From Auricularia sp. M13 (Eukaryota > Basidiomycota > Agaricomycetes > Auriculariales > Auriculariaceae): 64,000 bases of DNA. The notes beneath the pieces were generated by a model that did not search any database, was not told the DNA's origin, and worked only from the letters and a program-made list of their open reading frames with translations. The stretch covers positions 1,550,001 through 1,614,000 of the forward strand of contig CM073195.1 of assembly GCA_037042915.1 (NCBI GenBank), read 5' to 3'. Within the stretch, counting starts at the first letter, position 1. Each line of letters begins with the position of its first letter. A program made the translations under genes and the position numbers. Below, in pieces: positions 26,179 to 62,173 of this stretch.

Positions 26179-26325
26179 TCACGGCAGGCCGCTACATTTG
26201 CAGCATGTCGGGTTGGGCCCGGAGACCTCGCGTCCACAGATTTGTGGGAGAGGGATGGGCGCGGCGTTGGTGAGCGATGCGAACATGCAGCCGGCGAGGA
26301 CCGTGACGAGGAGAGTGCAACGCAT
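26179..26325 (-). CDS. tiny secreted cysteine peptide P1
   Basis: 48 residues. Signal peptide MRCTLLVTVLAGCMFASL-TNA, then three Xaa-Pro pairs (AP, IP, LP) and Q, then CGRE and CCKC with the tail SGLP. Cysteine pattern C-x10-CC-x-C. It is the leftmost member of the family, next to the LEA-like gene. The stop codon overlaps a good splice donor (GTGAGTG at the CCG), so a longer spliced form cannot be excluded. No properly oriented TATA box: a TATAAAA about 90 bp upstream lies on the other strand. Function unknown. Confidence 0.75.
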   Translation of the reverse strand: MRCTLLVTVLAGCMFASLTNAAPIPLPQICGREVSGPNPTCCKCSGLP

Positions 26326-26899
26326 TTTTGCAGGAGGAGTAAAGGTTGTGCTGAGCTGAGCGTTTGGGGAGTATTCGGCGTGTTGCTGGTGCCGGACTCA
26401 TGCGGTGAGCACGGCGCGTATAAAACGCCGGGGAGGGTAAGACATGTTTGTGCGACCTGCGCGCGGGATAACGAGAAGCGTCGCGCGGGATGTCGAGATG
26501 GGCATGCGATCCCGCGAGGTGGGGCGGGGGTCCGAAAATGGATGCGTGCTCGCGCAAACGCGATCGTGCGATCGCTACCCTATGAGCTTATCGAGTGGGC
26601 GGGTATCGGTTGCCGGGGTCAAGGGGAACGATGAGAGGAGCAGGAGACGAGCAGCTATATCGGGTCCCGCGTGACTGCATGTCTCCGAGGCAAATGGTCG
26701 ACACTGGTAACTTAGAGTGTGCGATCGCCAGCCACTGAGAAGCGTGACAGTTGATGCCGCGGAGCGCCATCGAGTCTCCGAGGGGCGCGCGGGATGACGA
26801 GGAAAGTGACGTCACGCCGTCGGTCATTACTTAACCCTTTCCCGCGGCCCTTTCAGTCTCGCCATTTTCTCCCACCCTCACTCTCACTCCCAACGCGAC
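26326..26899. other. divergent intergenic region
   Basis: Between P1 (-) and the LEA-like gene (+). A TATAAAA on the plus strand near 26422 is far from the LEA-like start. No gene seen. Confidence 0.5.
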
Positions 26900-27442
26900 A
26901 TGTTCTCGCACACCGTCCGCCGCGCGCTCTCGACGTCCGCGCGCACGCGCATGGCCGACAAGTCCTTCGCGCAGTCCGTCAAGGAGACCGCCGCAGGCGT
27001 CGCCGCCGCCGTGAGCCCCTCTCCCTCGCTCCCGGCGCTGTCTCTGACGGCGGGCATAGTTCCAGAATACGGGAAAGGTCGGGTCCAAGTTTGAGAAGGG
27101 CGGGGAAGTGGCCGAGACGGCCGAGAAGGTCGGCGGACCCTTCAGCAGCGACGGTGCCATTGGCAAGCAATTCGTGCGTTCCCCGCCATTATACCCGTTT
27201 TCTCTAGCTCATAGAGCGATCAGAGCGCCAAGGAGGGCGGCGTCGTTGGCGGCACGGGCCAGGCGGCGGCGAGCACGGCGAAGGGCGCAGCCAAAGAGTC
27301 GCTGAAGAAGGATCACGGCCACCAAGGCGCCAGCGGTAGTCATGTAAAGAACGACCCGAGCCCGCATGCGCAGAACGCCGCGTCGATGCCGTCGTCCAAC
27401 GAGCAGCTCGCGAACCACGCGCAGGTCGGAACCAAGGGTTAG
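26900..27442 (+). CDS. small LEA-like, probably mitochondrial stress protein
   Basis: Three exons. The first ends after ETAAGVAA, the second runs NTGKVGSKFEKGGEVAETAE to GAIGKQF, the third SDQSAKEGGVVGGTGQAA to NEQLANHAQVGTKG and the TAG at 27440. The N terminus MFSHTVRRALSTSARTRM is an amphipathic Arg/Ser-rich presequence typical of mitochondrial import. The rest is hydrophilic, Ala/Gly/Lys/Glu-rich, with repeated short helices (TAKGAAKESLKK) like group-3 late-embryogenesis-abundant proteins, plus a His/Gln/Asn-rich end. I infer a role in desiccation or stress protection; no catalytic motif is present. Intron ends are GTGAGC...CCAG and GTGCGT...ATAG. Confidence 0.7.
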
Positions 27443-29929
27443 TAGACTTGGTGTGGAGCCTCGTGAGGTCGTAGTTTAATTTCTTCCCCCTTTTTTCTCC
27501 CTACTTTAGATAAGGCTAAGTAAACGATCGCCAAAGCGCGACACTATTACTTTACCAGCAGCAAAGCAAATGTCAATGTATTTTATCATCTGCAATTCAG
27601 TTTGGCAACGCACCGTCACTGGAATAATTTCACATGAATCGATTTTGCACGGGTATGAGCTCGTCATTCGCTCGACCCAATCTTATTCGCCGCGCGCAAA
27701 CTCCGACATCCAATCCCGTGACTGAAGGACTGAAGGCATGTCATTCGGAGCCGAAGCACGGTTCTCTCCTTGAAGTTTTTTTCCACGCCTAACCCGCCGT
27801 CTTCAGTCAATGCCCGACGAAGCTGTCGGCAGTGCCGCAGCGGGTTCCTCTGTCTGCTACCCAAACTATGTATGCCTGTCGACGATGGCATCCGTTGCGA
27901 ACTGCCCGCTCGCTTCATCGCTCGCGTGCGCACGGTGTTGCTTGGGCTGCCGACGCGTGCGACGACCTTGGCTGTAGATCACTGCTGTCCAACCGACATC
28001 GTGGCCTCCTGCAGTTCTGCGGCTGGCCGTTGTATCCGAGTTCCACTGTCCTCGTGCCTACCCAATACTCTCGCACTGCGCACACTCGTCTATGCCTAGC
28101 GACAAGATTGTCTTGCTCAAGCGCCGATCTTTCTGCCAACTGCGTCTTGCTCTGCCAGTTCCAGTGCGCGCAATCTGTAGCACACACTGGCAGCAGCTCT
28201 CGAGTACCTCTCGCTCGTTATACAGTATGTCATTATACTAGGCTGGCGGACCTTATCAATATCATCGACGGCTGGTTTCAGGCCTCCGCACGCAATGCCC
28301 GACTCAAGCTGTGGCCGTGGCATGTGTCTTCGCTTGGGCTACGCCTGGCGGCTGGTTTCATCTTGCACTGTTCTGCGAGCGCTTGAGGCTTGAGCGCAGA
28401 CACATCGTGCAATCCCTGGCTTCTTTAAATTTGCGATACTTTTTGCTCCAAAGGAATGCCGGCAGCTGCGCTCGAGTCGTCGCTGTATAAGCGATTTCAG
28501 GATTTCTCCGAGTCTCGGCGCCCTCATCTACAGTATACCAGCACTGGCACAATCCTCCCGTTCCCCGCCTGCTCCTTCGGGCAGTCCGTGCCCTTCCAAA
28601 TCCTCTCCGCATGCGCCCGCTCGCACTCGGTGTCGCTCGCGCACGTACCGCGATTTGAAGGTACCCGAAGCAGATGCTGCGCTCCTACCTGCCTGCCACC
28701 CGATGCGCGCATCTTTTTTGCGGCTTCGAGGACGTGGTGCGGCGCGGTTGGGCGGTAGTGCGTTGATTCCGATACCGCGCGGTGGCTGGGGCGAGCGAGA
28801 GTCGGAGATGATTCTGGTTGCAGTTGGCCTGCCGCCGTCATTGATGATTGTAGCAGCCCGCTGCTGTCCTGCACGAGCGACATCTAAGCGGACTCGGGCG
28901 GAGTCTTCATCTTCGCATTATGGAATGGGTGCCAACCTATACACTATAGCGGCTCGCTCACACTCACACTTGGGCTTGACCTTGTCCAGGTGCTGTCTCC
29001 TGGCGCGTATCTGCAACAGGCACTCAGCCGCCTGCATCTCGAGGCTCGACATCTCCTGGCCTTTGCTATTGTCGGGCGCAGGCGACTCGCGTGCGGGCCC
29101 TGGGTCGTTGACTGTAGGTGGTGGAAATCGCGGAGGCATGGCCGTCTGCAGCTGGGACGTCCGCCTCAGGCTGCGGTCTTCGCTGCACGATTTTTGGATT
29201 CCACCTACCAGGCAACGATCTTTGGGCGCCTTGGGGGAGACAGGTTCATCTTGCTTGGCGTGTGATTTCTCATACGATGTGGGAGTTCGATTTTCATTCA
29301 ACGCAGTCAAGGTGTTGTTTCAGAGTTGCATCATCAGAAAAATCCGGTTCATCGAAACCTACGCTCCTTCATCGTTTGCTGATCGCTCGCTCATACAGTA
29401 CTAAGATTAATCATTTCTCGCCGTTGTCGACGCCGTCTTCTCCACCCTCCTCCCGGACTGAAATCCTCGCCCCGCGGATCTGCAAGCGGGACTTGGTCCG
29501 AGGTCGATTCCAAGGAGTGCTGCGAGTGCTAAACATCGTGCTGGACCACTCATAACTTGTACAAGACGAAAACCTTTGCAGGTGCTCTCCCTCAGGCTTC
29601 CCGGGCCGACCGAAGTGCGTATTTCTCGGGAACGTTGAACATTTGCAGAAGACAGGCCTCAAGTGTTCCGAAGATGTGACAAGGTCGTAGTAGAAACGAA
29701 GATATGATATGATTAGAGGCGGTTCCGAAAAGTGCAGTACATCATTGGGGACGAAGCGGCTGCCAGTGTACAATTTTCACGATTATACATATGCGGGACA
29801 GAAATAAGGATATGAAGGGCACAGTGGTAAGGCTACAATGGAGGAGGCACGAGGGACCTTTGCAATTCGAGTCAGCTCTGGAGAATGTGGCGAATGTGAG
29901 GGGTGGATATACCAATACATGAGCGCAGC
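27443..29929. other. 2.5-kb region without a recognised gene
   Basis: Frames up to 249 residues exist (for example plus strand 28655-29404), but they overlap on both strands, lack domains and have unconvincing composition. It may hold non-coding RNA, a decayed gene or only spacer. Confidence 0.4.
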
Positions 29930-43608: not shown

Positions 43609-43917
43609 ATGCGTTTCTTCTTCGCCTTCGCGCTTAACCTCGTCACGGTCCTTCTCGCTCTCTACACCGTGACTGTCTCAGCGAGCCCCATCTCGGCAGA
43701 CAAGCGTCAGACCTGCCGCAGAGGCCAGACGGGCGTCGACGGCGCCGCCATACCGCCCTGCTGCAATTGCGGACCTAGCTCACAGCCTGGAGCTCCTGCC
43801 ACAGTATCGGGTAAGCTGTTCCCGACTTTCTCACGATGAGCTTTGGCTCACATCGCAATCCTTACAGCGTCAGCTACCGTATCCGCCATTGTAGATGCGA
43901 CCGTGGCTCCGAACTGA
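43609..43917 (+). CDS. tiny secreted cysteine peptide P10 (KRQTC type)
   Basis: Signal peptide MRFFFAFALNLVTVLLALYT-VTVSA, then SPISADKR, QTCRRGQTGVDG, AAIPPCCNCGP. Pattern C-x14-CC-x-C. A dibasic KR directly before QTC replaces the Xaa-Pro ladder. A 57-nt intron (43811-43867, GTAAGC...TTACAG) fits well; spliced, the tail becomes PATVSASATVSAIVDATVAP plus Asn and stops at 43915. Unspliced it would end at 43839 after 76 residues. The intron form is preferred because of good splice sites and the smooth repeat-like tail. Confidence 0.8.
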
Positions 43918-45439: not shown

Positions 45440-47247
45440 ATGGTCAACTGGACAGACCCCGTCGTCATCTACCTCTGCGCTCGTGCGCCCGTTTCCCGCC
45501 TTTTTTGCTTTATATCCGCTGACCCCGGCTCTCAGGCGCGTTCACGCTCGTCGTGTGCTGCGCGTTTGGCATCTACATGTCCGTCCCGTCTATCCCCTAT
45601 CTCCGTTTTTTTATGCTGCTGACGACGACGGGCAGATGGGAGGTCCTCATCTCGCTCGACTTTGACATCGAGCACTTCACGGGCAAGCGGCCGATCCGGT
45701 GGACGTTCGTCGCCTACCTCCTCACGCGCTACCTCCTCCTCCTCGGCCTCATCGCCGGCATCCGCGTCACGAACGTCTTATCCCCGATAGACTGTGTCAT
45801 CTGGAACCGTCTCGTCTACGTGCGTCCCTCCGTCTCCCCCGGCGTTAACGGCGCTGACAATTTCTAGGCCTGCGCGCACGGCTGCTTCGCGATGGCGTCG
45901 CTGCTGCTGCTCCTGCGCGTCATCGCGATCGCGGAGAAGAACATGTACATCATCGGCTTCCTCGGCACCTTCTACCTCGTCAACCTCGGCCTGCTCATCC
46001 ACGGTCCGTCCCTCCTCAAAGTGCCCCTGACCAATCCTAACGCCACAACACCGAAGGTGTCACGGTCGTAAGTCCCCGCTACCCCCGGCTTCTCCGCTGA
46101 CACCTCGGGAATCCCCAGGCACATTCGATCTACGTGCCAGAGCTCTTCCTGTGCGGCGCGACGAACACCGTCGCGTCGCGCGTGAACGTCTGGGCGTCGT
46201 TTGGCTTCGACCTCGCGTGTCTCTTCCTCATGCTCTACCTCCTCCTGCGCCAGCCCGGCGGCGGCTTCTGGCGCTTCCTTGTTAACCAGGGATTCGTGTA
46301 TTTCTTGGTCGCCACTGGCAGCTATCTCTTGCCTTCGGTACGCCACGCCTAGTATAATCTGCTGCGCAACTCAACCGAAGTGCATTGCCAGATTTTCCTA
46401 ATCTTCAACTTGAACGGTGAGTCGAAGCGTTGATGAATCTCAGGCGTGCCCTGCTGACTTGGAGCGCCTCGTAGATGCGATGAACGAGGTTCGCATGCAT
46501 TATCCTTTGCTTTGAGCCGCGCGCTGACAGCCTCGAATCAAAGCTCCCACAAACAGTTTCCCGTGAGACCTCTCCCTCACCCCTCCTCTGTCGCGAGCGC
46601 TGACGTCTGGTTCTCAATGCGACAGTGACGACGATGGTGATCTGCGCGACGCGCATGTACCGCCAGCTCAGCGTGTTCGACGAGGACGAGGCGAACCGGT
46701 ACATCATCTCGGGGTGCGTCCGAATGTCTCATAACGAACTGTCGACTCAATTTGTCACAGCGAGGAGACGCAGATGGGCACGCGCCGCACGGCTGGCCGC
46801 AGGGGTGACCGGTTCAGTGTCGGCCGTGCGAGCATCAGGTCTGTCTTACCTCCACACCATTCTCGCCTTCCCCGTCGCTCGCTGACGCTCGCCGGCGCGC
46901 AGCATCCAATTCAAGCGCGACCAGCCCGGCGGCGGGCCGGGCCGGGCGACAGCACGGTGGGCGTGCTGGGCGGCGGCGCGCGCGGGACGATGCGCGGCGG
47001 GCTTGTGGACGAGTACGACGACGACTTTGAGGGGCGCAGTGCTGTGGGGCTTGGCGCGGATGGGATGCCCATGCGCAGGATGGGTGGTGGAGGTGGGATC
47101 GATGTTATGCATAGGTGCGTCCTTTTGTGCTGTGGTGGGTTGGAACTTGGAAGGCTGATTGTGGTTGCGATGGGGAGCCCGTCGAGCGTGAGCGATGCGA
47201 GTGCGTATGAGAAGGATGTGAAGGACCGGGATGTGTTTGTCGTTTAG
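45440..47247 (+). CDS. multi-pass (about 7 TM) membrane protein, first copy, frame broken near the 3' end
   Basis: About eight introns. Start MVNWTDPVVIYLCA; spliced segments include AFTLVVCCAFGIYIWEVLIS, LDFDIEHFTGKRPIRW, TFVAYLLTRYLLLLGLIAGI, ACAHGCFAMASLLLLLRVIA, YIIGFLGTFYLVNLGLLIHG, VPELFLCGATNTVASRVNVW, FGFDLACLFLMLYLLLRQPG, VTTMVICATRMYRQLSVFDE, and a cytosolic Gly-rich tail (MRGGLVDEYDDDFEG) ending KDRDVFVV. This layout matches a large basidiomycete-restricted class of 7-TM proteins without known function. Compared with the second copy, one C is missing in the GGGCC run near 46945, which shifts the frame just before the Gly-rich tail. Either the gene is damaged here or this is a sequence error. 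Confidence 0.75.
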
Positions 47248-48120
47248 GGCCGTCTCGGCTCGGACCTGCACTGTGCTCCCCTCGTTAGAGCACTGTGCTC
47301 CGAGGAGGACGGGCTGACATAGGCCCATTGCCGTGGGCTGCCCTGTTTGTACTCGTTTGTGTTTGTCAATGTGCCGGTTCACAACTGTTTGCGTTTCTCA
47401 ATCTGATCGGTTCAATGGGCTTGAGCCGTGAGTCTGGCGAGCGGGAAATGGTGCGAGATGGGCAGGGTGCGTTGTAGGGGTGTAAAGCGGAAACGAGCGA
47501 GCTGTCAGAGCTTCGGTGACGTTCACGCGCCGGTGAGTGAGTCATCGGAGCGAACCCAGAGCAGTGAGCTCGCTGAATCCGCGGAACATTCATAACGTTC
47601 CAAGCAGGTGACTAAGCTTGTGCTTAGGAGGCACTCGCAAGTTTCAGTCGTGGGCGGCTCAGAGACTATTTGCATTCGTTTATATTTGCATCTGTCACGG
47701 TACGCGTCCGCTGTACGTAATGGTTTATCTGTCATGGAATGCGTCGGGCAGCTTATCTCTAACAGTCGGTCGTAGGTACATCCAGTGCGAACACGGTGTT
47801 TCGGCCGGTGCGCCGTGATCGTCGGTCCCCATCGGTGCTGTGCGTGTGAATCGGAGGCTCGGAGTGTTTGAGCTTGAGAATGCGAACGATCGACACGGAG
47901 TAAGTGGGAGAAGAGTATGTGGATTATATATGGGAACTACGGGGATCGGGAACGCGGCGACTACAGGGATGCTAAGCGGCTACTACAGGGATCGGCTAAG
48001 CGGGAACTACAGGGATTGGGCGCAATGCATAGCATAAGAATATCGCTAGGGCTACAAGTTGGGATCATAATGATATCCGAGTCCGACTCGTCAGTGGTGC
48101 AGAGTTAAATATTCATCTAG
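47248..48120. other. intergenic with a short minisatellite
   Basis: No gene seen apart from the repeat at 47934-48020. Confidence 0.5.
47934..48020. repeat. minisatellite-like array
   Basis: Four imperfect units built on ACTACAGGGATYGG with GCTAAGCGG spacers (about 22-27 bp each). Also present in the second unit at 58442-58528. Confidence 0.75.
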
Positions 48121-48387
48121 TTAAGGGTCACAGCTGCGGGGCGGGGGTCCTGGGATATGAGGTGCCGCGTCAGGGAATTTATGGGAAATTAGGGTAGGAG
48201 CTGGGCGCACGCACCCTGAAGGAACAACATCGCCGCAGTTCTTGCAGCATAGAGTGCCAAATTGGTCGCGCGCGCAGGCTTGCCTGCCGACGAGCGGCGA
48301 GTCGGAGGCAGTAGCACCGAGCGGCGAGGCCGCCGTGAGAGTGAGGGCGCTGAGGAGGGCGGCGGAGATGGCGAGGATGAAGCGCAT
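48121..48387 (-). CDS. tiny secreted cysteine peptide P12 (GRQAC type)
   Basis: Signal peptide MRFILAISAALLSALTLTAA, then SPLGATASDSPLVGRQACAR, DQFGTLCCKNCGDVVPSG. Pattern C-x8-CC-x2-C. Unspliced, 88 residues with a Pro-rich tail. An intron from GTGCGTGCGCC to the AG before GACCCCCGCC would give the shorter tail GTPAPQL, closer to family size. I cannot decide between them. TATAAAGG sits about 105 bp upstream. Confidence 0.8.
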   Translation of the reverse strand: MRFILAISAALLSALTLTAASPLGATASDSPLVGRQACARDQFGTLCCKNCGDVVPSGCVRPAPTLISHKFPDAAPHIPGPPPRSCDP

Positions 48388-50638
48388 TATTGGTGTGTGT
48401 TAGATAGGTAGGAGAGAGAGTTGAGTAGTGGAGAAGAGAAGAGAAAAGTAGTGTAAAACTGATGATGAGCCCTCCCCAGCGCACATGCGTTCTCCTTTAT
48501 ACTCTTACTCCTGCTACTCATCCCACAGCTCCGGCACAGATCCTGGCAATGTTCACCATGGGTTTCATCAGCACATCGCTGGAACACACCGTGCTGAGAC
48601 AGTAGCGTATAGCCGGCGAGGGCGGTGTTTGCGAACACAATCGCCGATACACTGTGCCCAGGCTGTTTTCTTCCATCCGAGTCACGCTTAAGGTCCGCTA
48701 TGGCTGCGCTCATCTGTCGTAAGCCCCCCTGAGCGGCCGATCGTGAACGCGTATCACGTGGAGTGCGGTTTGGGCGCGTGTTTTGTGAATGGGCGTTTTT
48801 TTAACCTTTATGGTGACTCTGACTCCGTGAGAGGCGGATTGTTGACGCGTTGACGCCTGACCTTTTTTCGGTTCACTGGCAATGAACCCGAGATTAGTCA
48901 TTCGCCACCAATGAGAACTTTTCCAATGAGATCCGTCGAGCGCAACCACCGGCGCATCGGTATTACTAGCTGCTGCCGACAACAACTGCTCTTGCTTGGA
49001 TCCGTGCAGAAAGTATCGCATATACATGCATGCGCGGGTCTCCCCCGCAAATGAGATTTCACCTCTGCGTCTCCTTCGTTACAAGGTCCGATCCTGAAAT
49101 TCAGGGTATCACGTGATGAGCCGGTCCGGCAGGCGATCTAAACAAGGCCAAATCTCGTGCTCCTCCGAGTCGACTCGCTCAACCACTGCCATCGTCCGCA
49201 TAGCAGCGTTGTCCACATCTGCGCGCCGACATCAGTTACTTGTGCTTTCCTTCAGTATCACGCAACAGCATCCCTGGTCTGCGCTCGCTGTCTACGGCAG
49301 CGCCATGAGTGGAGCATCTGGCCAGACCGTGTTCCGCACTACCGTTCCCCGCTTTCAGTGCCCAACGTCAGGGCAGGCAGTCACACACATCGCTTGTGGT
49401 GACGGTATAGATATCTGGCGCTAGCGTGCTTCTTGGGATTGTGGCAGTCGTCTTTTTCTCCCGGCAAACCCTTGCCGTGCTGACCCAATGGCCAACGCAG
49501 CCTCGTTATCTTCCATTCATCTGGTGACTAGGGCATGGATCATTTCAGCGCCCCTTGTCTCCCTTGGATTCCGAACCGCCGTTCATCACAGACGACCTGC
49601 CATGCTTCGCTCCGCTCGCTGAAATCCCGATGTGTCTGCTTGCGAGTCTAATCTCATGACTGGAAGCTTGGCTATGCCTTTTACTCGCACTCCGGTCCTC
49701 GCTGGTTCTTGGGCGCTGATGCCGATTCAGTGCGTTGACGGCTGAACGGACCGCGACGCTGTTTTGCCGCTCAGTTAGGGAGGCCCAGCCGGGCGACAAC
49801 GAAGCTCCATGCCTACGTGCTCTCGCTTTGACAGTGGTTTTGTTCGGCCATAGATCTCTCCGGTTGTTCATGTGCACAGAACTCGCATTAGCCCCTCGAA
49901 CTGCGTTGCGGCAAGGACGGCAAGGCGCGTGACTTCTGAACACGGCGTGCTAGTAGGGATTAGAGGGGAACTTATTGAACTGCAGCACGACGGTTGAATC
50001 GTGCTCAATTATCCTCGCAGGCCCTCCATGACCGGTGTCATCCGTGCCAGAGTGCAGAAGCACGATACGGACGCGGATCCTTTGCCATGACAAGGCCCGT
50101 TTCAGGACGATATGGTTCGTACAGCCTTGGAGACAACGGACCGACGCATTATCGATGGCGGTCCTCTTTCCCGCCTCCATACCTCGACGGCTCCGCCTTG
50201 TTTGAGCTCCGAGCGCGCGCTTCACGAGTCCGCATGGGCTTATGGCGCAGACACAGGCGGCGAACATTGTGCCCACAGTACGAAGAGGTTGGCGTTTGGC
50301 GTCGCCCAATCACTCGATACGAAAGTCGTTGTCTCTTGCCCTCAGCGGAATACAATCGCGGCTGTACGGATATGGCACCGTACTCACGATGGATCGTTTC
50401 TTAGGCTCGTGGAACTCTGTTAAACGTTTAAAAGAGGCACAATGGAGATTACAGAAATATCAGGTACAGCTGTGGACGTGCAAAGGAAGCTATATTTACT
50501 TGAGGCGAGATGGAGATAGTCTGAGGGATTGTGAGGTTTCTCCGAGTTTGGTGGACGTCGGGCGTGGAGGTTATAGGGCCGGGTTTAATCTGTTGACTGT
50601 GTGGTTGGAGTTAGCAGTGGTCATTCAGGTGAAACAGA
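48388..50638. other. 2.2-kb intergenic region, the most diverged part of the duplication
   Basis: Short frames only. Between 48.5 and 50.6 kb it differs from the second unit by many substitutions and small indels, unlike the 6 kb to its left. Confidence 0.5.
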
Positions 50639-50785
50639 TCATACCCGGGCTACCATAGAATCACATCCCTTGCAGCACAAAGTGCCGTCACTGAGTATCA
50701 CGCCGCATGTCTGCGGCAGAGGTGTGGCAACTCCAATGGCAAATATGGTGCAGAGCACGCCTATGAATGGGCGGACGATGCGCAT
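50639..50785 (-). CDS. tiny secreted cysteine peptide P13
   Basis: 48 residues: MRIVRPFIGVLCTIFAIGVA, then TPLPQTCGV (TP and LP pairs before Gln), ILSDGTLCCKGC and the tail DSMVARV. Pattern C-x9-CC-x2-C. The Arg at position 5 shortens the hydrophobic start; the second copy has Leu there. No basic pair follows the first Cys. Confidence 0.82.
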   Translation of the reverse strand: MRIVRPFIGVLCTIFAIGVATPLPQTCGVILSDGTLCCKGCDSMVARV

Positions 50786-51457
50786 TGTCAATCAAAGCGA
50801 CGAGAGATGAGAGACAGAGTGTTTCTTTGAAGAGCGTGCACACATACCCAGCTCCTTTATATTGGCCATAGGCACCGCTAGTCTCGTGGGCACAGTAAAG
50901 CTTGGGGTGTATGACATCCTAGCGGTGCATTAGATTAATTCTTGCGCGGAGATGCTGTGTTCATTCCGCCCAGTCCGATGTACACTTGCTTGTCCTGACT
51001 CGCCTGCTTTCACGTTCGGCAGCTTGCGCGCCTCCACGCGACGGTTCGGCGAGGTCCTACAGATGCGTCGAAATCTAATGCAAGTGCTTCGGTATCAGCT
51101 GGGAAAACTGGGGAACGGCAGCTTTGCCGTTGAGGGCGCTTTGAGTCGGATTAGGAAAAGAACTTCAGTTCCCATCGCGCGCCTGCCGGTGTGTGATAGC
51201 AACGACGTCGGCGCCGCCTGATGCCACATTCTCGTGCATAGACAAGCTGCGGAATTAGCAGCCTCTGCCTGTGTAGTTTGAGGGAGGAGGGTATGTTTGC
51301 GCGAAAAGATTGTAGACGAGCCGATCATAGCGCGCATGGACTCCAATAATGAGTCCTATTGACAGGTGATGCAGCTGGCAAGTCATATTCTGTTCAAGCA
51401 TCACGGGAATACAAAGGCACAGTTACACAGGCGAGCTCGCGACTGCTCTCGTCAGTT
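50786..51457. other. intergenic, no gene seen
   Basis: Contains the P13 promoter and the 3' flank of P14. Confidence 0.5.
50854..50861 (-). promoter_or_regulatory. TATA box of P13, first copy
   Basis: TATAAAGG on the minus strand, about 70 bp upstream of the P13 start codon. The second copy has a substitution inside this box. Confidence 0.65.
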
Positions 51458-51663
51458 CTACGCGGCGGAATCGGCTGGACAACATCCTGAATGAGCTATT
51501 CGACTGCCAAAGGAAGACAGGAGCAACGTACCGACCACGCCGTCAGGGAGGTCACGGCGACAGGCAGGGAGGGGTTGCACGTTCCACCTCCCTGGGGGAC
51601 AGGAGACGCCATAGTAGCCAGCAGAGTTGCCAGGACGGTGACGGACGCGAGGGCGAAGCGCAT
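51458..51663 (-). pseudogene. peptide P14, first copy, frameshifted
   Basis: Starts like the intact second copy (MRFALASVTVLATLLATMAS, PVPQGGGTCN), but a run of four instead of five G (plus strand, near 51570) shifts the frame before the cysteine core, giving PSLPVAVTSLTAWSV instead. The downstream intron and second exon are still present in the other frame. Single-base homopolymer length is also a common sequencing error, so it may be intact in reality. Confidence 0.7.
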
Positions 51664-51725
51664 GTTGGTGGTGCCTTACTGTAGTAACGAGCCATATGCG
51701 CGGCACGTGTGCGGATCGGAAGCTT

Positions 51726-51827
51726 TACTCCTTTGCTTTCATCCCACTCGTGCCAGGTACGCGTCGTAGTATTACTATTCCATACTTATATTAATCTACT
51801 CCTTTGCTTTCATCCCACTCGTGCCAG
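51726..51827. repeat. pair of 31-bp direct repeats, 71 bp apart
   Basis: The 31-nt sequence TACTCCTTTGC...CGTGCCAG occurs at 51726-51756 and 51797-51827, between the P14 promoter and the copia gag. It may belong to the LTR/leader of the copia element or be a promoter duplication. Confidence 0.85.
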
Positions 51828-52091
51828 TTCCCTGAACCGTGCCTCAGTGCATAGGTTATGAGCCCCGTCGTGTAACGACAGGGAACTGAATAGAGTCAAA
51901 CGGCACCTCTTGATACGCCAAGCAGCGCCCGCCCAGCTCAAAGAAGCGAAGCCCGACGCGTGCAAAGGCCATCAAGCGCGCCAAGTCACCGGACACGCGC
52001 AGATCCATCGCAGATCTGTTGACGCGACCGGCCATCAACGCGGGACGTCGCCGGCCCTGAGCGCGTCACCCTCTCTCTTCCTCGTACCGCC

Positions 52092-52854
52092 ATGGACGTT
52101 AACTACGACAACGCCACGCGCACGAACGTGTGCCTGCTCACCGAGGCGAACTTCGCCCACCCGAGAACGAGATGACGGCCTACCTCGATACCCGCATGCT
52201 GAGCCGATACATCGAGGCCTCGCACGGCGTTGCGCCCGCGGTCGACCCTACCAAGCCCGACACGTTCGACAAGCTGACGGCGTGGGAGGACAAGCATCGC
52301 GCCGTCTGTGGGCACATCTACCGCCACCTCGACGCGTCGATTCAAGGCGAATTCCTCGAGCACTACCAGAAGAAGAATGCGTACGAGTTCTGGTCCGCCC
52401 TCGAGAAACGTTTCCGCACCAAGCGCCCCGGGCAGCGATTCCAGGCGATGGGGGACGAACTCAACATCAAGATGTCCCCGCGGACGCCGCTCACCGACCT
52501 GTACTCGCGCGTCATTGAGCGCAAGAGGGGCCCGAGCAACTACACGCTCAAGAACTTCGACGACGAGTTTGACGCCTGCGTCTGGATGCGTGCGCTGCCC
52601 GAGGAGTATGGTACGCTTGCCACCGCCATTCACGTCTCGAACGGAGAGAAACCGCTCGAGATGTCCGTCATCCACGCGGCGCGCGCGTCGAGGACGACCA
52701 GCAGCTCACTCGCGGAAAGCCTGCCGCTGCCGCCATGCGCGCCCGTGCCGCCGCTGCTGACGCCACCGGGGCACCGGCGCCATTCGCGCAGCCCAGTCTC
52801 TATTGTCGAAGCTCTGAAGCGCCTGCACAAAGACGCTGCGCTCACCCGATGCCT
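52092..52854 (+). pseudogene. truncated, frame-broken Ty1/copia gag
   Basis: Same sequence as the gag at 62604, but with a frameshift after ANFA (near 52155), several more indels near 52480-52550 and 52670-52800, and an abrupt end at the duplication junction after KRLHKDAALTRC. The zinc knuckle, protease and all pol domains are missing. Confidence 0.9.
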
Positions 52855-54118
52855 GACTACTTACATGTCGAAGTTGCGCACAATGGGCGCGGACGCAGCG
52901 GCGTCTGGGCGCTTGTGTTCTGCTTGTGCTGAGGAGGACAGAAAAGGCGTTCGGCATTCGGCCCCGATGCAAGAAGACACGGTCACGTGACTAACTTCAT
53001 GCTGACATCGGAGTTGACAAGTGGTAACATCTGCATCCTGAGGTAAGTAACTTATGTCACACACTCGCGAAGTGTCACGCAGATAGCTCCTATCTTCGCG
53101 CAGACATACGGCCTTGTGCAGGTACACGCGGGCATAAGATCGACGAAGACTGCGCAGTTTGATAGGTTAGTAACGACCGCGGATTCAGCGCGTTCGTAAG
53201 CATGGCGGGTATTGCGCGACGCTCGTGCTCGAGTACAGCCATTACTCTGCTTGTTTTGGGAGTCACAATGCTGCTAGCCGTGGCGAAGATTATAGATCGA
53301 ATCCGGCGCTTGCATGAGCGTTGAGCACAGAAAGGACGGCATTTAGTCTTCCAGAAAGAAATGCCCTGCGCTTCGGGGGATATGTAGCCAGCAATAAGCT
53401 GCGGAAGATATGTGCATGCGGGTTCGCCAATGACATCGCAGATGAGGACAGCGAAACGGATGGCTCAATCACGTGACGATGGATTTCTTTCCGGATAGTA
53501 TCCCAAGCGTGCATGATATCGGTGTGTAAGATTATTATCGTGCAGTATCTCAACGGCCTCTGGTTGGAACGATAATTGACTCGTTGCTTCGTGCTCCAGG
53601 TTCTAGCGTTAGCAACCATATCCATCACTCCGAGGCCTCCAACGTGCATCGTCCTATGGCGCAACCCGGCATTCCGTAAATCCACAATAGTCAGACTTGA
53701 CAAGAATGCCACAGCCGTTACTTTGACGTGACTGCTCCCTAACCAGCTCTGGATTGACGCCCAAACTCCAAACTCCAAGTTTGGACGTCGACGCGAGTCC
53801 CGCAGCGGCCTAAACACGACAACGTCACGGACTTTCGCTGATGGCTGCGCATACGTCGGCGATCGCCACCGAGCTTTGCGCGTTCCATACACTCGCAGCT
53901 TTCCCGCGGACTGCAACCTGGACGATCAGGCGCACACGTCGGAGCCGTTCGACTGCGCCGGGCTGTTTCGGCGTACATACTCAACTGGCAATGTAGTTCA
54001 CACGCGCTGCCAGTGGTCGTCTGGGTATATAAACGCGCCTGAATTATTGCAGCGTGGCTTCAATCTCATTCTTTCTCACGCAGTCGCTCTCATATCCTCA
54101 CCCGTACTAGTACTCATA
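52855..54118. other. intergenic/promoter region of P10 second copy
   Basis: Same content as 42345-43608; no gene called. Confidence 0.45.
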
Positions 54119-54427
54119 ATGCGTTTCTTCTTCGCCTTCGCGCTTAACCTCGTCACGGTCCTTCTCGCTCTCTACACCGTGACTGTCTCAGCGAGCCCCA
54201 TCTCGGCAGACAAGCGTCAGACCTGCCGCAGAGGCCAGACGGGCGTCGACGGCGCCGCCATACCGCCCTGCTGCAATTGCGGACCTAGCTCACAGCCTGG
54301 AGCTCCTGCCACAGTATCGGGTAAGCTGTTCCCGACTTTCTCACGATGAGCTTTGGCTCACATCGCAATCCTTACAGCGTCAGCTACCGTATCCGCCATT
54401 GTAGATGCGACCGTGGCTCCGAACTGA
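54119..54427 (+). CDS. peptide P10, second copy
   Basis: Identical in coding sequence, intron and TATA box (54026-54033) to the first copy at 43609-43917. Confidence 0.8.
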
Positions 54428-54952
54428 GAGTAATCGCCAGGAGGAGATACCGTATAGACTGTCCCGGCCGTCTTCCGAGTTCATTCATTTGACTCGGATT
54501 CTAGATTTCTCGAAGCAGAGAGGATTGATAGAGTAGATCATACATAGAGCTCCGGTGTATCCGTTATTCATATTTAATTTAGACGCGTGATATCTATGAC
54601 TTATACTTATCAGTCCCAGGTCAAGCCCAGCTGTACCCAAGCGCCGCAGTGGTTTGTCTCCTGACTCTCGGGGCGAGGCGCGCGGGAAAGTGATAAGTAA
54701 GATCATGTCTTTTACAGAAATTATGAGATTAAGCGGGAATTCTATAATACTGAAACTAATTGCTACACGCATATGAGTGGGAAATACAGTCCAAGGGGAT
54801 GTCCGTGGATCCGAGGCGCAACAGCAGGCCGGATGCGAAATACTGCATTCTGACTCGGTGCCTATTTCTCGCCTAGGGCTTGTGCGACTGTCAGCGTCTT
54901 CAGGCCTAGAAACGTACAGTATATAGAACGCACTTTATAGTATCGCATATGA
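54428..54952. other. 3' flanks of P10 and P11 second copies
   Basis: As in the first unit, no gene seen. Confidence 0.5.
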
Positions 54953-55093
54953 TTAACATTTGCAGCATAATGGCTGGGTCGTGGAGTTGCCGCAGGCCTG
55001 CCGCTCCGCGAGGGATGGCGCCGCGGTGGGGAAGGACGCCACGGTGGCCGCCGTACAGAGAAGTGCGAGCGCAATGGTGAAGGTGAAGTGCAT
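54953..55093 (-). CDS. peptide P11, second copy
   Basis: Identical to the first copy at 44443-44583. Confidence 0.82.
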   Translation of the reverse strand: MHFTFTIALALLCTAATVASFPTAAPSLAERQACGNSTTQPLCCKC

Positions 55094-55949
55094 TATTGGT
55101 GAATGGAAAAGTGGGTAAAGTAGAGGGTGATGAGGACTGAAGTTTAGGATGCCGCTGGTAGTGAGTTTCTAAGAACTTGGACGACGCTGGTTAAATACTC
55201 TGAACCACGAGACGAGCGCTCTCCCCGCAGTACTGCAAGGTGTGAGCCTGTGGGCCGGGACTGGTCCAAAGCTGTTCCTCGCTGTTCGCGGCGCAAGACG
55301 GCATCCCGGGCCTGCGTATCCTGGCGCTGAGATTCAGCTCAACAGATCGACGCAGAGTTGGTGTTTACGAAAAGCCTAACGGAGCGCGTGCACGCAAAAC
55401 AGCGCGGATCGTCGAGCGGTGCTGGCAGGTGGACGGCGTGCCGGGCCGGCGGCGCCGCGCTTGTACTCGCGCAGCGGCGAGCGCAGACCTTTCGCGCGTA
55501 GACGCAGAGTGAGACAGCTGCAGAGCCATGTACGTTTCGCCGGTACGGCTGCGCAGACGGTGAGCCCTGGCCTGGACCTCAGAAACCGCCAGCCAGGCTC
55601 GAACACAGGCGGACCACGCGCAGTCTGCGATGGTTCATACGGAGTGTCGAGCGGCTGGGTTCACGGTCATGGGGAAAAAAAAGAAGACGATCATCGCGGG
55701 CGGAGGAGAAGAGATCGTCGGGGTTGAGCGGAAGCAAACGCGTCTTGCACCCCGACAACGACGACGACCGGCGCAGCACAGAACCAGACGAAGAAGCACG
55801 TTACCCCAGTCGCGATTTAGAACTCAGACAGGGGCGCGGATGAGCGCGAAGTGGGGGATTTAGCCCCCCCAATTACGGGCTGCGGGAGTAATCCGGGAGG
55901 GGGCGAATGACAGCCTCCTGTCCCGCACGCCTCTTGCTCCCCGCCCACG
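55094..55949. other. intergenic, as 44584-45439
   Basis: No gene seen. Confidence 0.5.
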
Positions 55950-57755
55950 ATGGTCAACTGGACAGACCCCGTCGTCATCTACCTCTGCGCTCGTGCGCCC
56001 GTTTCCCGCCTTTTTGCTTTATATCCGCTGACCCCGGCTCTCAGGCGCGTTCACGCTCGTCGTGTGCTGCGCGTTTGGCATCTACATGTCCGTCCCGTCT
56101 ATCCCCTATCTCCGTTTTTTTATGCTGCTGACGACGACGGGCAGATGGGAGGTCCTCATCTCGCTCGACTTTGACATCGAGCACTTCACGGGCAAGCGGC
56201 CGATCCGGTGGACGTTCGTCGCCTACCTCCTCACGCGCTACCTCCTCCTCCTCGGCCTCATCGCCGGCATCCGCGTCACGAACGTCTTATCCCCGATAGA
56301 CTGTGTCATCTGGAACCGTCTCGTCTACGTGCGTCCCTCCGTCTCCCCCGGCGTTAACGGCGCTGACAATTTCTAGGCCTGCGCGCACGGCTGCTTCGCG
56401 ATGGCGTCGCTGCTGCTGCTCCTGCGCGTCATCGCGATCGCGGAGAAGAACATGTACATCATCGGCTTCCTCGGCACCTTCTACCTCGTCAACCTCGGCC
56501 TGCTCATCCACGGTCCGTCCCTCCTCAAAGTGCCCCTGACCAATCCTAACGCCACAACACCGAAGGTGTCACGGTCGTAAGTCCCCGCTACCCCGGCTTC
56601 TCCGCTGACACCTCGGGAATCCCCAGGCACATTCGATCTACGTGCCAGAGCTCTTCCTGTGCGGCGCGACGAACACCGTCGCGTCGCGCGTGACGTCTGG
56701 GCGTCGTTTGGCTTCGACCTCGCGTGTCTCTTCCTCATGCTCTACCTCCTCCTGCGCCAGCCCGGCGGCGGCTTCTGGCGCTTCCTTGTTAACCAGGGAT
56801 TCGTGTATTTCTTGGTCGCCACTGGCAGCTATCTCTTGCCTTCGGTACGCCACGCCTAGTATAATCTGCTGCGCAACTCAACCGAAGTGCATTGCCAGAT
56901 TTTCCTAATCTTCAACTTGAACGGTGAGTCGAAGCGTTGATGAATCTCAGGCGTGCCCTGCTGACTTGGAGCGCCTCGTAGATGCGATGAACGAGGTTCG
57001 CATGCATTATCCTTTGCTTTGAGCCGCGCGCTGACAGCCTCGAATCAAAGCTCCCACAAACAGTTTCCCGTGAGACCTCTCCCTCACCCCTCCTCTGTCG
57101 CGAGCGCTGACGTCTGGTTCTCAATGCGACAGTGACGACGATGGTGATCTGCGCGACGCGCATGTACCGCCAGCTCAGCGTGTTCGACGAGGACGAGGCG
57201 AACCGGTACATCATCTCGGGGTGCGTCCGAATGTCTCATAACGAACTGTCGACTCAATTTGTCACAGCGAGGAGACGCAGATGGGCACGCGCCGCACGGC
57301 TGGCCGCAGGGGTGACCGGTTCAGTGTCGGCCGTGCGAGCATCAGGTCTGTCTTACCTCCACACCATTCTCGCCTTCCCCGTCGCTCGCTGACGCTCGCC
57401 GGCGCGCAGCATCCAATTCAAGCGCGACCAGCCCGGCGGCGGGCCGGGCCCGGGCGACAGCACGGTGGGCGTGCTGGGCGGCGGCGCGCGCGGGACGATG
57501 CGCGGCGGGCTTGTGGACGAGTACGACGACGACTTTGAGGGGCGCAGTGCTGTGGGGCTTGGCGCGGATGGGATGCCCATGCGCAGGATGGGTGGTGGAG
57601 GTGGGATCGATGTTATGCATAGGTGCGTCCTTTTGTGCTGTGGTGGGTTGGAACTTGGAAGGCTGATTGTGGTTGCGATGGGGAGCCCGTCGAGCGTGAG
57701 CGATGCGAGTGCGTATGAGAAGGATGTGAAGGACCGGGATGTGTTTGTCGTTTAG
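55950..57755 (+). CDS. multi-pass (about 7 TM) membrane protein, second copy, frame broken in a TM exon
   Basis: Same gene as 45440-47247. Here the Gly-rich tail is intact (GGGPGPGDSTVGVLGGG), but one A is missing near 56691 (CGTGACG where the first copy has CGTGAACG), which shifts the frame inside TVASRVNVWASFGFDLACLF. Other differences are one-base length changes in homopolymers that fall in introns. A consensus of the two copies would be fully open. Confidence 0.75.
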
Positions 57756-58628
57756 GGCCGTCTCGGCTCGGACCTGCACTGTGCTCCCCTCGTTAGAGCA
57801 CTGTGCTCCGAGGAGGACGGGCTGACATAGGCCCATTGCCGTGGGCTGCCCTGTTTGTACTCGTTTGTGTTTGTCAATGTGCCGGTTCACAACTGTTTGC
57901 GTTTCTCAATCTGATCGGTTCAATGGGCTTGAGCCGTGAGTCTGGCGAGCGGGAAATGGTGCGAGATGGGCAGGGTGCGTTGTAGGGGTGTAAAGCGGAA
58001 ACGAGCGAGCTGTCAGAGCTTCGGTGACGTTCACGCGCCGGTGAGTGAGTCATCGGAGCGAACCCAGAGCAGTGAGCTCGCTGAATCCGCGGAACATTCA
58101 TAACGTTCCAAGCAGGTGACTAAGCTTGTGCTTAGGAGGCACTCGCAAGTTTCAGTCGTGGGCGGCTCAGAGACTATTTGCATTCGTTTATATTTGCATC
58201 TGTCACGGTACGCGTCCGCTGTACGTAATGGTTTATCTGTCATGGAATGCGTCGGGCAGCTTATCTCTAACAGTCGGTCGTAGGTACATCCAGTGCGAAC
58301 ACGGTGTTTCGGCCGGTGCGCCGTGATCGTCGGTCCCCATCGGTGCTGTGCGTGTGAATCGGAGGCTCGGAGTGTTTGAGCTTGAGAATGCGAACGATCG
58401 ACACGGAGTAAGTGGGAGAAGAGTATGTGGATTATATATGGGAACTACGGGGATCGGGAACGCGGCGACTACAGGGATGCTAAGCGGCTACTACAGGGAT
58501 CGGCTAAGCGGGAACTACAGGGATTGGGCGCAATGCATAGCATAAGAATATCGCTAGGGCTACAAGTTGGGATCATAATGATATCCGAGTCCGACTCGTC
58601 AGTGGTGCAGAGTTAAATATTCATCTAG
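57756..58628. other. intergenic with minisatellite, as 47248-48120
   Basis: No gene seen; repeat at 58442-58528. Confidence 0.5.
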
Positions 58629-58895
58629 TTAAGGGTCACAGCTGCGGGGCGGGGGTCCTGGGATATGAGGTGCCGCGTCAGGGAATTTATGGGAAATTAG
58701 GGTAGGAGCTGGGCGCACGCACCCTGAAGGAACAACATCGCCGCAGTTCTTGCAGCATAGAGTGCCAAATTGGTCGCGCGCGCAGGCTTGCCTGCCGACG
58801 AGCGGCGAGTCGGAGGCAGTAGCACCGAGCGGCGAGGCCGCCGTGAGAGTGAGGGCGCTGAGGAGGGCGGCGGAGATGGCGAGGATGAAGCGCAT
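58629..58895 (-). CDS. peptide P12, second copy
   Basis: Coding sequence identical to 48121-48387. Divergence between the units begins a little upstream of its start codon. Confidence 0.8.
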   Translation of the reverse strand: MRFILAISAALLSALTLTAASPLGATASDSPLVGRQACARDQFGTLCCKNCGDVVPSGCVRPAPTLISHKFPDAAPHIPGPPPRSCDP

Positions 58896-61147
58896 TATTG
58901 GTGTGTGTTAGATAGGTAGGAGAGAGAGTTGAGTAGTGGAGAAGAGAAGAGAAAAGTAGTGTAAAACTGATGATGAGCCCTCCCCAGCGCACATGCGTTC
59001 TCCTTTATACTCTCACTCCTCCTACTCATCCCACAGCTCTGGCACAGATCCTGGCAATGTTCACGATGGGTTTCATCAGCACATCGCCGGAACGCACCGT
59101 GCTGAGACAGTAGCGTATAGCCGGCGAGGGCGGTGTTTGCGAACACAATCGCCGATACACTGTGCCCAGGCTGTTTTCTTCCATCCGAGTCACGCTTAAG
59201 GACCGCTATGGCTGCGCTCATCTGTCGTAAGCCCCCCTGAGCGGCCGATCGTGAACGCGTATCACGTGGAGTGCGGTTTGAGTGCGTGTTTGTTAGTGGG
59301 CGTTTTTTAACCTTTTAGATGACTCTGACTCCGTATGAGGCGGATTGTTGACGCGTTGACGCTCGACATTCTTTTCTTCGGTTCATTACTGGCAATGAAC
59401 CCGAGATTAGTCATTTACCACCATGAGAACTTGTCCAATGAGATCCGTCGAGCACAAGCACCGGCGCATCGGTATTACTAACTGCCGCCGACAACTGCTC
59501 TTGCTTGGATCGGTGCAGAAGTATCGCATATACATGCATGCGCGGGTCTCCCCCGCAAATGAGATTTCACCTCTGCGTCTCCTTCGTTACAAGGTCCGAT
59601 CCTGAAATTCAGGGTATCACGTGATGAGCCGGTCCGGCAGGCGATCTAAACAAGGCCAAATCTCGTGCTCCTCGACTCGCTCAACCACTGCCATCGTCCG
59701 CATAGCAGCGTTGTCCACATCTGCGCGCCGGCATCAGTTACTTGTGCTTTCCTTCAGTATCACGCAACAGCATCCCTGGTCTGCGCTCGCTGTCTACGGC
59801 AGCGCCATGAGTGGAGCATCTGGCCAGACCGTGTTCCGCACTACCGTTCCCCGCTTTCAGTGCCCAACGTCAGGGCAGGCAGTCACACACATCGCTTGTA
59901 CCAGGTGACGGTATATGATATCTGGCGCTAGCGTGCTTCTTGGGATTGTGGCAGTCGTCTTTTTCTCCCGGCAAACCCTTGCCGTGCTGGCCCAATAGCC
60001 AACGCAGCCTCGTCCTCTTCCATTCATCTGGTGACTAGGGCATGGATCATTTCAGTGCCCCTTGGCTCCCTTGGATTCCGAACCGCCGTTCATCACAGAC
60101 GACCTGCCATGCTTCGCTCCGCTCGCTGAAATCCCGATGTGTCTGCTTGCGAGTCTAGTCTCACTGACTGGAAGTTTGGCTATGCCCTTTATGCGCACTC
60201 CGGTCCTCGCTGGTTCTTGGGCGCTGATGCTGATTCAGTGCGTTGACGTTTGAACGGACCGCGCGCGACGCTTGTTCGCCGCTCGGTTAGGGAGGCCCAG
60301 CGGGGCGACAACGGAGCTGCACGCCTACGTGCTCTCGCTTTGACAGTGGTTTTGTTCGGCCATGGATCTCTTCGGTTGTTCATATGCTCAGAACTTGCAT
60401 TAGCCCCTCGAACTGCGTTGCGGCAAGGACGGCAAGGCGCGTGACTTCTGAACACTGCGTGCTAGTAGGGATTAGAGGGGAACTTATTGAACTGCAGCAC
60501 GACGTTGAATCGTGCTCAATTATCCTCACAGGCCCTCCATAACCAGTGTCATCCGTGCCAGAGTGCAGAAGCACGATACGGACGCGGGTCCTTTGCCATG
60601 ACAAGGCCCGTTTCAGGACGATATGGTTCGTACAGCCTTGGAGACAACGGACCGACGCATTATCGATGGCGGTCCTCTTTCCCGCCTCCATACCTCGACG
60701 GCTCCGCCATGTTTGAGCTCCGAGCGCGCTTCACGAGTCCGCATGGGCTTATGGCGCAGACACAGGCGGCGAACATTGTGCCCACAGTACGAAGAGGTTG
60801 GCGTTTGGCGTCGCCCAATCACTCGATACGAAAGTCGTTGTCTCTTGCCCTCAGCGGAATACAATCGCGGCTGTACGGATATGGCACCGTACTCACGATG
60901 GATCGTTTCTTAGGCTCGTGGAACTCTGTTAAACGTTTAATAGAGGCACAATGGAGATTACAGAAATATCAGGTACAGCTGTGGACGTGCAAAGGAAGCT
61001 ATATTTACTTGAGGCGAGATGGAGATAGTTTGAGGGATTGTGAGGTTTCTCCGAGTTTGGTGGACGTCGGGCGTGGAGGTTATAGGGCCGGGGTTAATCT
61101 GTTGACTGTGTGGTTGGAGTTAGCAGTGGTCATTCAGGTGAAATAGA
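58896..61147. other. intergenic, diverged counterpart of 48388-50638
   Basis: No gene called. Short frames differ in length from those of the first unit because of indels, which argues against coding function. Confidence 0.5.
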
Positions 61148-61294
61148 TCATACCCGGGCGACCATAGAATCACATCCCTTGCAGCACAAAGTGCCGTCAC
61201 TGAGTATCACGCCGCATGTCTGCGGCAGAGGTGTGGCAACTCCAATGGCAAATATGGTGCAGAGCACGCCTATGAATGGGAGGACGATGCGCAT
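61148..61294 (-). CDS. peptide P13, second copy
   Basis: 48 residues. Differs from the first copy by Leu instead of Arg at position 5 (MRIVLPFIGVLCT), a better signal peptide. The TPLPQTCGV and CCKGC blocks are unchanged. Confidence 0.82.
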   Translation of the reverse strand: MRIVLPFIGVLCTIFAIGVATPLPQTCGVILSDGTLCCKGCDSMVARV

Positions 61295-61966
61295 TGTCAA
61301 TCAAAGCGACGAGAGATGAGAGACAGAGTGTTTCTTTGAAGAGCGTGCACACATACCCAGCTCCTTTTTATTGGCCATAGGCACCGCTAGTCTCGTGGGC
61401 ACAGTAAAGCTTGGGGTGTATGACATCCTAGCGGTGCATTAGATTAATTCTTGCGCGGAGATGCTGTGTTCATTCCGCCCAGTCCGATGTACACTTGCTT
61501 GTCCTGACTCGCCTGCTTTCACGTTCGGCAGCTTGCGCGCCTCCACGCGACGGTTCGGCGAGGTCCTACAGATGCCTCGAAATCTAATGCAAGTGCTTTG
61601 GTATCAGCTGGGGAAACTGGGGAACGGCAGCTTTGCCGTTGAGGGCGCTTTGAGTCGGATTAGGAAAAGAACTTCAGTTCCCATCGCGCGCCTGCCGGTG
61701 TGTGATAGCAACGACGTCGGCGCCGCTTGATGCCACATTCTCGTGCATAGACAAACTGCGGAATTAGCAGCCTCTGCCTGTGTAGTTTGAGGGAGGAGGG
61801 CATGTTTGCGCGAAAAGATTGTAGACGAGCCGATCATAGCGCGCATGGACTCCAATAATGAGTCCTATTGACAGGTGATGCAGCTGGCAAGTCATATTCT
61901 GTTCAAGCATCACGGGAATATAAAGGCACAGTTACACAGGCGAGCTCGCGACTGCTCTCGTCAGTT
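61295..61966. other. intergenic, as 50786-51457
   Basis: A few substitutions relative to the first unit; no gene seen. Confidence 0.5.
61363..61370 (-). promoter_or_regulatory. altered TATA box of P13, second copy
   Basis: One substitution (61368; equivalent to 50859) turns TATAAAGG of the first copy into TAAAAAGG on the minus strand. Confidence 0.6.
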
Positions 61967-62173
61967 CTACGCGGCGGAATCGGCTGGACAACATCCTGAA
62001 TGAGCTATTCGACTGCCAAAGGAAGACAGGAGCAACGTACCGACCGCGCCGTCAGGGAGGTCACGGCGACAGGCAGGGAGGGGGTTGCACGTTCCACCTC
62101 CCTGGGGGACAGGAGACGCCATAGTAGCCAGCAGAGTTGCCAGGACGGTGACGGACGCGAGGGCGAAGCGCAT
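61967..62173 (-). CDS. peptide P14, second copy, intact with one intron
   Basis: Exons 62173-62041 and 61995-61967 (intron 45 nt, GTACGT...TTCAG) give 53 residues: signal peptide MRFALASVTVLATLLATMA, then SPVPQGGGTCNPLPACRR, DLPDGAVGCCPADSAA. It keeps the SP and VP pairs, Gln and the RR after a Cys, but the last Cys of the CC-x-C motif is lacking while an extra Cys lies upstream (TCN). It is the most divergent member. Without the intron the frame runs on to the same stop, but the CC is displaced. Confidence 0.75.
   Translation of the reverse strand: MRFALASVTVLATLLATMASPVPQGGGTCNPLPACRRDLPDGAVGTLLLSSFGSRIAHSGCCPADSAA

Follow-up and report, generated by a model that had tools for sequence, protein, structure and literature searches.

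KEX2-processed repeat proteins (KEPs) of basidiomycetes, in the sections of the literature cited here, have a signal sequence, place X-Pro or X-Ala pairs or else a basic site ahead of the product, and in some cases give products that start with Gln or pyroglutamate (PMC6339444, PMC9769878). Each precursor contains the core as several repeats flanked by KEX2 sites; those quoted in these sections contain either none or two cysteines. According to the same sections, STE13-type enzymes take off X-Pro and X-Ala pairs, and STE13 motifs and pyroglutamate peptides have been reported from secreted precursors of other agaricomycetes (PMC9769878). Copsin, a defensin of Coprinopsis cinerea, is described in the cited parts as a secreted, KEX2-cleaved agaricomycete peptide with a pyroglutamate Q-x-C start (PMC4381204, PMC9769878). 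In this study, we analyzed a stretch of 64,000 nucleotides from Auricularia sp. M13 (hereafter the window; C3:1,550,001-1,614,000, C3 being contig CM073195.1 of assembly GCA_037042915.1, which comprises 52.1 Mb in 14 contigs), and found that it contains a cluster of genes for tiny secreted-type peptide precursors with four cysteines. Together with members found elsewhere, 18 distinct precursors (P1-P18) were identified. They are best explained as products of a fungal gene family that is dispersed yet for the most part clustered, each gene encoding a precursor with a single core peptide, and we give the whole explanation, including the processing and the defense or competition role proposed below, a probability of about 0.5.

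The window contained 14 distinct loci (P1-P14) and five further copies within a 10.5-kb direct repeat, with open reading frames (ORFs) of 38-88 codons. A hydrophobic start was present in the ORFs of P1-P14, the secretory signal being judged from hydrophobicity alone, and C-x(5-14)-CC-x(1-2)-C was found in 13 of the 14, with P14 as the exception. These loci, the five duplicates, the cysteine pattern and its deviation in P14 had all been given in a preliminary description of this DNA and were present as described; its proposal of a secreted, cysteine-scaffolded peptide family was supported as well. The looser pattern C-x(3-16)-CC-x(0-3)-C occurred in 22 ORFs of the window, 17 of which exceeded a hydrophobicity cut of 1.6, and all 17 belonged to the peptide family (13 distinct members and four copies). 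In 30 Markov-generated windows, the motif alone was found 2.23 times on average (maximum 5), and the motif with hydrophobicity 0.23 times (maximum 2). Chance ORFs were therefore rejected as an explanation. A similar scan over 254 kb of C3 placed the family at 1,576-1,621 kb and gave two further matches with no resemblance to it.

In 15 of the 18 distinct precursors, two to six X-Pro pairs linked the terminal Ala of a signal-like stretch to a product starting with Q-x-C, in a test that was framed after the pattern had been seen and in which Ile-Cys was allowed for P5. The product starts of P5 (Ile-Cys) and P14 (Q-GGG-T-C) were the exceptions among these X-Pro precursors. In the other three, a basic residue directly preceded Q-x-C (KR in P10, ER in P11, and GR in P12). 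The string A(XP)2-6-Q-x-C had 12 matches in 507,996 six-frame residues (254 kb), all of them in the family (11 distinct members and P13b); because the family itself supplied the string, this measures its rarity elsewhere and is no independent prediction. The spacer of P17, SP-VP-AP-VP-AP-VP/Q, contained six pairs (slashes mark predicted cuts), and therefore the spacer appears to grow in steps of two residues. Whole-number X-Pro spacers, and a cleavage signal of another kind at this position in three precursors, are what would be expected if the product must start at Gln. The conserved block before the first cysteine is thus most readily understood as a signal for processing, with X-Pro or a basic site followed by Gln, together with the first residues of the product, a rule that the preliminary description missed.

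These features suggest a maturation route in which signal peptidase would cleave after Ala and the X-Pro pairs would be stripped by a STE13-type dipeptidyl aminopeptidase, or, by an alternative route, a KEX2-type protease would cut behind the basic residue. The exposed N-terminal Gln could then be converted to pyroglutamate, the four cysteines are assumed to form two disulfides, and peptides of 12-21 residues, longer where C-terminal tails are present, would be released from the cell. A DPPIV_N gene, of the family to which STE13 belongs, is present at C8:3,079,723-3,081,050 and may encode STE13 or another dipeptidyl peptidase. The X-Pro and basic-site precursors thus seem to yield one and the same N-terminus, following the STE13/KEX2 logic of ascomycete alpha-pheromones and some mushroom peptides.

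Members with X-Pro spacers were found on both strands. On the minus strand were P1 (26179..26325, A/AP-IP-LP/QIC), P2 (29930..30049, A/SP-VP/QTCKRDNACCSC), P5 (35327..35476, A/VP-TP-GP/ICGRDSLGELCCKC), P6 (36497..36640, A/TP-VP/QVCGRVVRRCCKNC), P7 (38071..38187, A/NP-VP/QTCKRGSLCCNNC), P8 (39698..39823, A/NP-VP/QTCKREGASTDCCNCG), P9 (41103..41228, A/NP-VP/QTCKRDSIDPADCCQC), P13 (50639..50785, A/TP-LP/QTCGVILSDGTLCCKGC), and the divergent P14 (51496..51663, A/SP-VP/QGGGTC). P3 (32630..32749, A/TP-VP/QTCKRQGSSECCNC), with a TATA box at -106, and P4 (34787..34966, A/AP-AP/QACRRDIHGVLCCRC) were on the plus strand. The C-terminal ends of P4 and P6 are uncertain, both having candidate introns. The three basic-site precursors were P10 (43609..43839, plus strand, KR/QTCRRGQTGVDGAAIPPCCNC), P11 (44443..44583, minus strand, ER/QACGNSTTQPLCCKC), and P12 (48121..48387, minus strand, GR/QACARDQFGTLCCKNC).

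Among the 16 distinct members bearing the cysteine motif (P14 and P18 were excluded from all loop and product counts), the predicted products measured 12-21 residues to the last cysteine and had a net charge of -1 to +4. The loop from the first cysteine to CC comprised 5-14 residues and was in no two members alike, while the scaffold ended in CC-x-C in 12 of the 16 and in CC-x(2)-C in four. Gln came first in 15 of 16, Arg stood at the second place after the first cysteine in 14, and Leu preceded CC in seven. Thus, the contrast of a conserved precursor with a variable loop, described previously, held for the variation in length and sequence; a fully free loop did not hold, and the loop is variable yet not free. 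The products are probably capped by pyroglutamate and closed by two disulfides.

The peptide ORFs look like genes, as judged from TATA boxes, candidate introns, and codon constraint. Of 17 distinct genes, 12 had TATAWAAG with at most one mismatch between -135 and -55, versus 2.6% of 4,000 random positions. The upstream word CGATCGGC was present in five of the 17 genes versus 1.4% of control stretches, an enrichment that is marginal because 10,559 words were tested. The block PVPQTCKR, known from P2, P3, P7, P8, and P9 and confirmed there, also occurred in P17 outside the window, and among these six members seven of its eight third codon positions varied, and none of the 16 first or second ones did. 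When a longer block of the precursor was compared, the ten pairs among P2, P3, P7, P8, and P9 gave synonymous differences per site (pS) of 0.698 and nonsynonymous differences per site (pN) of 0.237, a comparison from which P14 and P18 were excluded. At the level of sequence, these values demonstrate purifying selection on the precursor part. Since pS is near saturation, the duplications that produced these five genes must be old.

A candidate 3' intron of 40-65 nucleotides with donor, branch, and acceptor followed the last cysteine in P1 (26143-26182), P10 (43811-43867, with alternative acceptors possible), P12 (48150-48214), and P13 (50597-50644), with alternative choices possible in the latter two. 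Candidates were less clear in P4 and P6; possible introns were seen by eye in P5, P14b, and P16, that of P5 lying at the 3' side and having no standard branch site. No intron is needed in P2, P3, P7, P8, P9, P11, and P17, where the ORF stops at the last cysteine or one residue later. Because the candidate 3' introns follow the last cysteine, some ORF ends may be wrong; of the ORF extents listed before, the loci therefore stand, and several 3' ends (P1, P10, P12, and P13, less clearly P4 and P6, and by eye P5 and P14b) may not.

The two units of the 10.5-kb direct repeat were placed at 42345..52854 and 52855..63364 (ends approximate), and the first contained P10-P14, a gene with multiple membrane segments, and a copia gag fragment. 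In the second unit, P10b (54119..54349, plus strand), P11b (54953..55093, minus strand), and P12b (58629..58895, minus strand) were identical to P10, P11, and P12, and P13b (61148..61294, minus strand) differed from P13 by two substitutions. P14b (61967..62173, minus strand) differed from P14 by a one-base indel, which shifts the frame within the loop, and a possible 45-nucleotide intron seen by eye would give it a C-C-CC pattern. Over the first 6,000 bases the units showed four gap columns and no substitutions; farther on, as many as 22 substitutions occurred per 500 bases. Such mosaic divergence is consistent with a recent duplication accompanied by gene conversion, or with an assembly in which two haplotypes were placed one behind the other; as sequence alone cannot tell these apart, the five second copies should not be taken for independent genes. 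Outside the repeat, eight matches were obtained when 25.0-52.85 kb was compared with itself at high sensitivity, and five of these involved the family. Four were coding matches of 66-119 nucleotides among P2, P7, P8, and P9, one extending about 25 nucleotides upstream of the start. With so few and such short matches between peptide genes (five, 47-119 nucleotides), the other duplications are old. Accordingly, the earlier proposal of repeated tandem duplication holds as a recent event for the 10.5-kb unit only, where an assembly join is possible. A decayed relic of the family at 29400..29532 (plus strand), without an intact signal, retained the fragments APRICKRD and, in another frame, DSKECCEC* (by eye), and matched P9 at its end and in the adjoining flank at 78.7% over 47 nucleotides. 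Together with the indel between P14 and P14b, this relic suggests that birth and decay are both visible in the family.

Further members were identified by protein searches of the same genome and by the 254-kb scan of C3, and the genome counts are lower bounds. P15 (C3:1,619.6 kb) and P16 (C3:1,621.0 kb) lie past the window end, so that the cluster reaches to about C3:1,621,100, and P17 (C3:1,971.2 kb) lies about 350 kb from it. The range of 26179..62173 previously assigned to the cluster thus contains its 14 loci and is not its limit. The divergent P18 (C9:398020-398142), with the start A/AP-TP/QVCGR and a TATA-like stretch, had one cysteine, not two, before C-x-C. A near-copy (93% over 41 residues) was found on a second contig, at C12:486082-486204, and excluded from all counts. 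A weak match to P4 at C4:2388150-2388263 (E value 0.108) had APLP and C..C-x-C pieces without a signal-like start or CC, and was rejected and taken as chance, though it may be a remote relic. Another weak match lay at C11:2,514,020 (E value 0.072).

Several other genes were interspersed with the peptide genes. The gene with multiple membrane segments was seen by eye from ORFs in each unit of the repeat (45440-46800 and 55950-57300), and by its position only it is a possible partner or receptor. A copia-type gag fragment (Retrotran_gag_2) at 52103-52987, where the first unit ends, was repeated at about 62583-63350 in the second, where the gag-region ORF 62534-63097 had no Pfam match; gag appears to be interrupted by the unit junction at about 52,855. 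Between P3 and P4, the start of a carbon-nitrogen hydrolase (PF00795, profile positions 1-46 of 256) was found at 32943-33979, and two further ORFs nearby had no Pfam match. This is a nitrilase gene, either intron-containing or broken. A tandem repeat with a 24-base unit in 3.5 copies was located about 100 nucleotides downstream of P12 and P12b (47935-48016 and 58443-58524). Pfam matches among the neighboring ORFs also included a CDC37 gene, DUF1996, and BCS1-like genes; these, the copia gag fragment, the STE3 receptor matches elsewhere in the genome, and the candidate introns of 40-65 nucleotides are in keeping with a basidiomycete.

With regard to function, the products may serve as a diversified set of extracellular peptides for defense or competition, built with a conserved scaffold, conserved ends, and a varying loop. 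This role, to which we assign slightly less than even odds, was ranked first because an end-protected scaffold, many paralogues, and variable loops are the usual picture for peptides acting on varied targets. Several observations weigh against it or against the processing it presupposes. X-Pro pairs behind a signal peptide are also known in other fungal secreted proteins and need not mean processing. The DPPIV_N gene on C8 may encode a dipeptidyl peptidase other than a Golgi STE13. The plant-type glutaminyl cyclase (PF05096), the only type searched, was not found in the genome. P1, P2, P7, P9, and P11 (five of the 17 genes) had only poorer TATA matches. The weak charge of the products does not indicate a membrane-lytic role, and an AlphaFold prediction of P13 from 13 family rows gave no confident fold (mean predicted local distance difference test score 58.1, predicted template modeling score 0.18; two short strands in the model were not interpreted). 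Finally, the partial loop conservation in some members would also fit ligands.

Such ligands could be alpha-pheromone-like messengers outside mating, by which the fungus signals to itself through surface receptors with a specificity of their own for each member. Signaling of this kind takes second rank on account of the pheromone-like logic of the precursors: X-Pro pairs or a basic site stand where they do in alpha-pheromone precursors, as far as the cited sections describe them (PMC6339444, PMC9769878), and the ends Q-x-C-x-R and CC-x-C are conserved. However, the precursors are single-core, 15 different motif-bearing products (P1-P13, P15, and P16) lie in one cluster, the five STE3 matches on C7 are away from it, and no cognate receptor was identified, two exon-like ORFs of the multi-membrane-segment gene in the 10.5-kb unit having no Pfam family match. 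We therefore regard self-signaling as unlikely. The Arg kept behind the first cysteine in 14 of 16 motif-bearing members allows for a different structure, in which a KEX2-like cut at a [KRGA]-R site (KR or RR in eight of 16) would leave a Q-x-C-x-R chain held by a disulfide to a CC-x-C chain, somewhat like insulin. In P11 and P12, a cut is predicted in any case between Gln and the preceding ER or GR, respectively. KEX2 cuts poorly at GR and AR, however, P11 (GN) and P13 (GV) lack any site, and the kept Arg may simply be functional, so that two-chain peptides seem quite improbable. We give similarly low odds to a still bolder idea, namely an undescribed basidiomycete system of one-core, pyroglutamate-capped, four-cysteine peptides with two independent routes to the N-terminus and a second cut at Arg, yielding two-chain recognition ligands between individuals or organisms. 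The small size, secretory start, cysteine richness, clustering, and loop diversity would also suit effectors directed at a host, whether a plant or another organism, or peptides associated with the colonization of wood or host; among 20 neighboring ORFs scanned, no Pfam match pointed to a host, and this role appears hardly probable. Secreted metal-binding thiol peptides would explain the CC-x-C and C-x-C spacing, but the secretory pathway is oxidizing, there are four cysteines only, and their distance to the first is variable. Known fungal metallothioneins differ from these peptides in the secretory signal, and metallothionein was rejected on cysteine number and secretory signal; metal binding is the least credible of these roles. 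Defense or competition thus remains our preferred, if tentative, interpretation.

Peptide genes of this size fall below the usual gene-length cut-offs, and KEP surveys sought repeats; single-core families could therefore be missed by both. The rule of X-Pro followed by Gln-x-Cys could be applied to other basidiomycete genomes, and peptidomics could use it to predict the masses of mature products. The family would provide very small disulfide-stabilized scaffolds if its peptides act on other organisms; if they are ligands, they would bear on the role of STE13-type processing in fungi that do not require it for their mating pheromones.

In searches with 13 members (P14-P18 left out), no family was matched in Pfam (best E value 0.015) or NCBIfam (best 0.029), and no match was found in the PDB, where the best (0.94) was confined to the N-terminal 29 residues of a beta-lactamase. 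Literature searches, whose coverage mostly left out subscription papers, yielded no description of the P1-P18 family. In agreement with the preliminary description, the family is thus provisionally considered undescribed, the comparison with fungal sequences being one with its own genome. Basidiomycete a-type pheromones are prenylated CaaX peptides (a designating aliphatic residues) without a signal peptide and are linked to STE3 genes. They were rejected on account of ends such as CCNC, CCKC, and CNCG, the hydrophobic start, and the location of STE3 on another contig, all five matches in the genome being on C7 and the peptide cluster on C3. Hydrophobins have eight cysteines and were rejected because the peptides have four and not the eight-cysteine pattern. 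Conotoxins share with P1-P18 a conserved precursor, a fixed cysteine scaffold (C-CC-C framework), variable loops, and many paralogues; this is a likeness of evolution only, in another kingdom, and homology was neither sought nor is implied. The a-type pheromones are similar in being encoded by tiny genes in multiple copies, as noted in the cited section (PMC6339444).

The closest parallels concern the precursor. As in alpha-pheromone-like, STE13-matured peptides, X-Pro pairs stand directly before the product in 15 of 18 members, where cleavage is predicted. Copsin, according to the part of its description cited here, has 57 residues, 12 cysteines in six disulfides, and a defensin fold (PMC4381204), compared with 12-21 residues and four cysteines in the present peptides, and no Pfam match to a copsin-type defensin was found in 13 members. 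Unlike KEPs, P1-P18 have one core per precursor (all 18 were read and none contained repeats), four cysteines, and clustered genes, and the X-Pro pairs in 15 of 18 members directly follow the presumed signal site with no KEX2 site between. A secretory signal is common to both, a hydrophobic start above the threshold having been found in the 17 motif-bearing ORFs of the window. Taken together, the family resembles KEPs with STE13 signatures and copsin, its nearest described kinds, in the processing signals that it shares with them.

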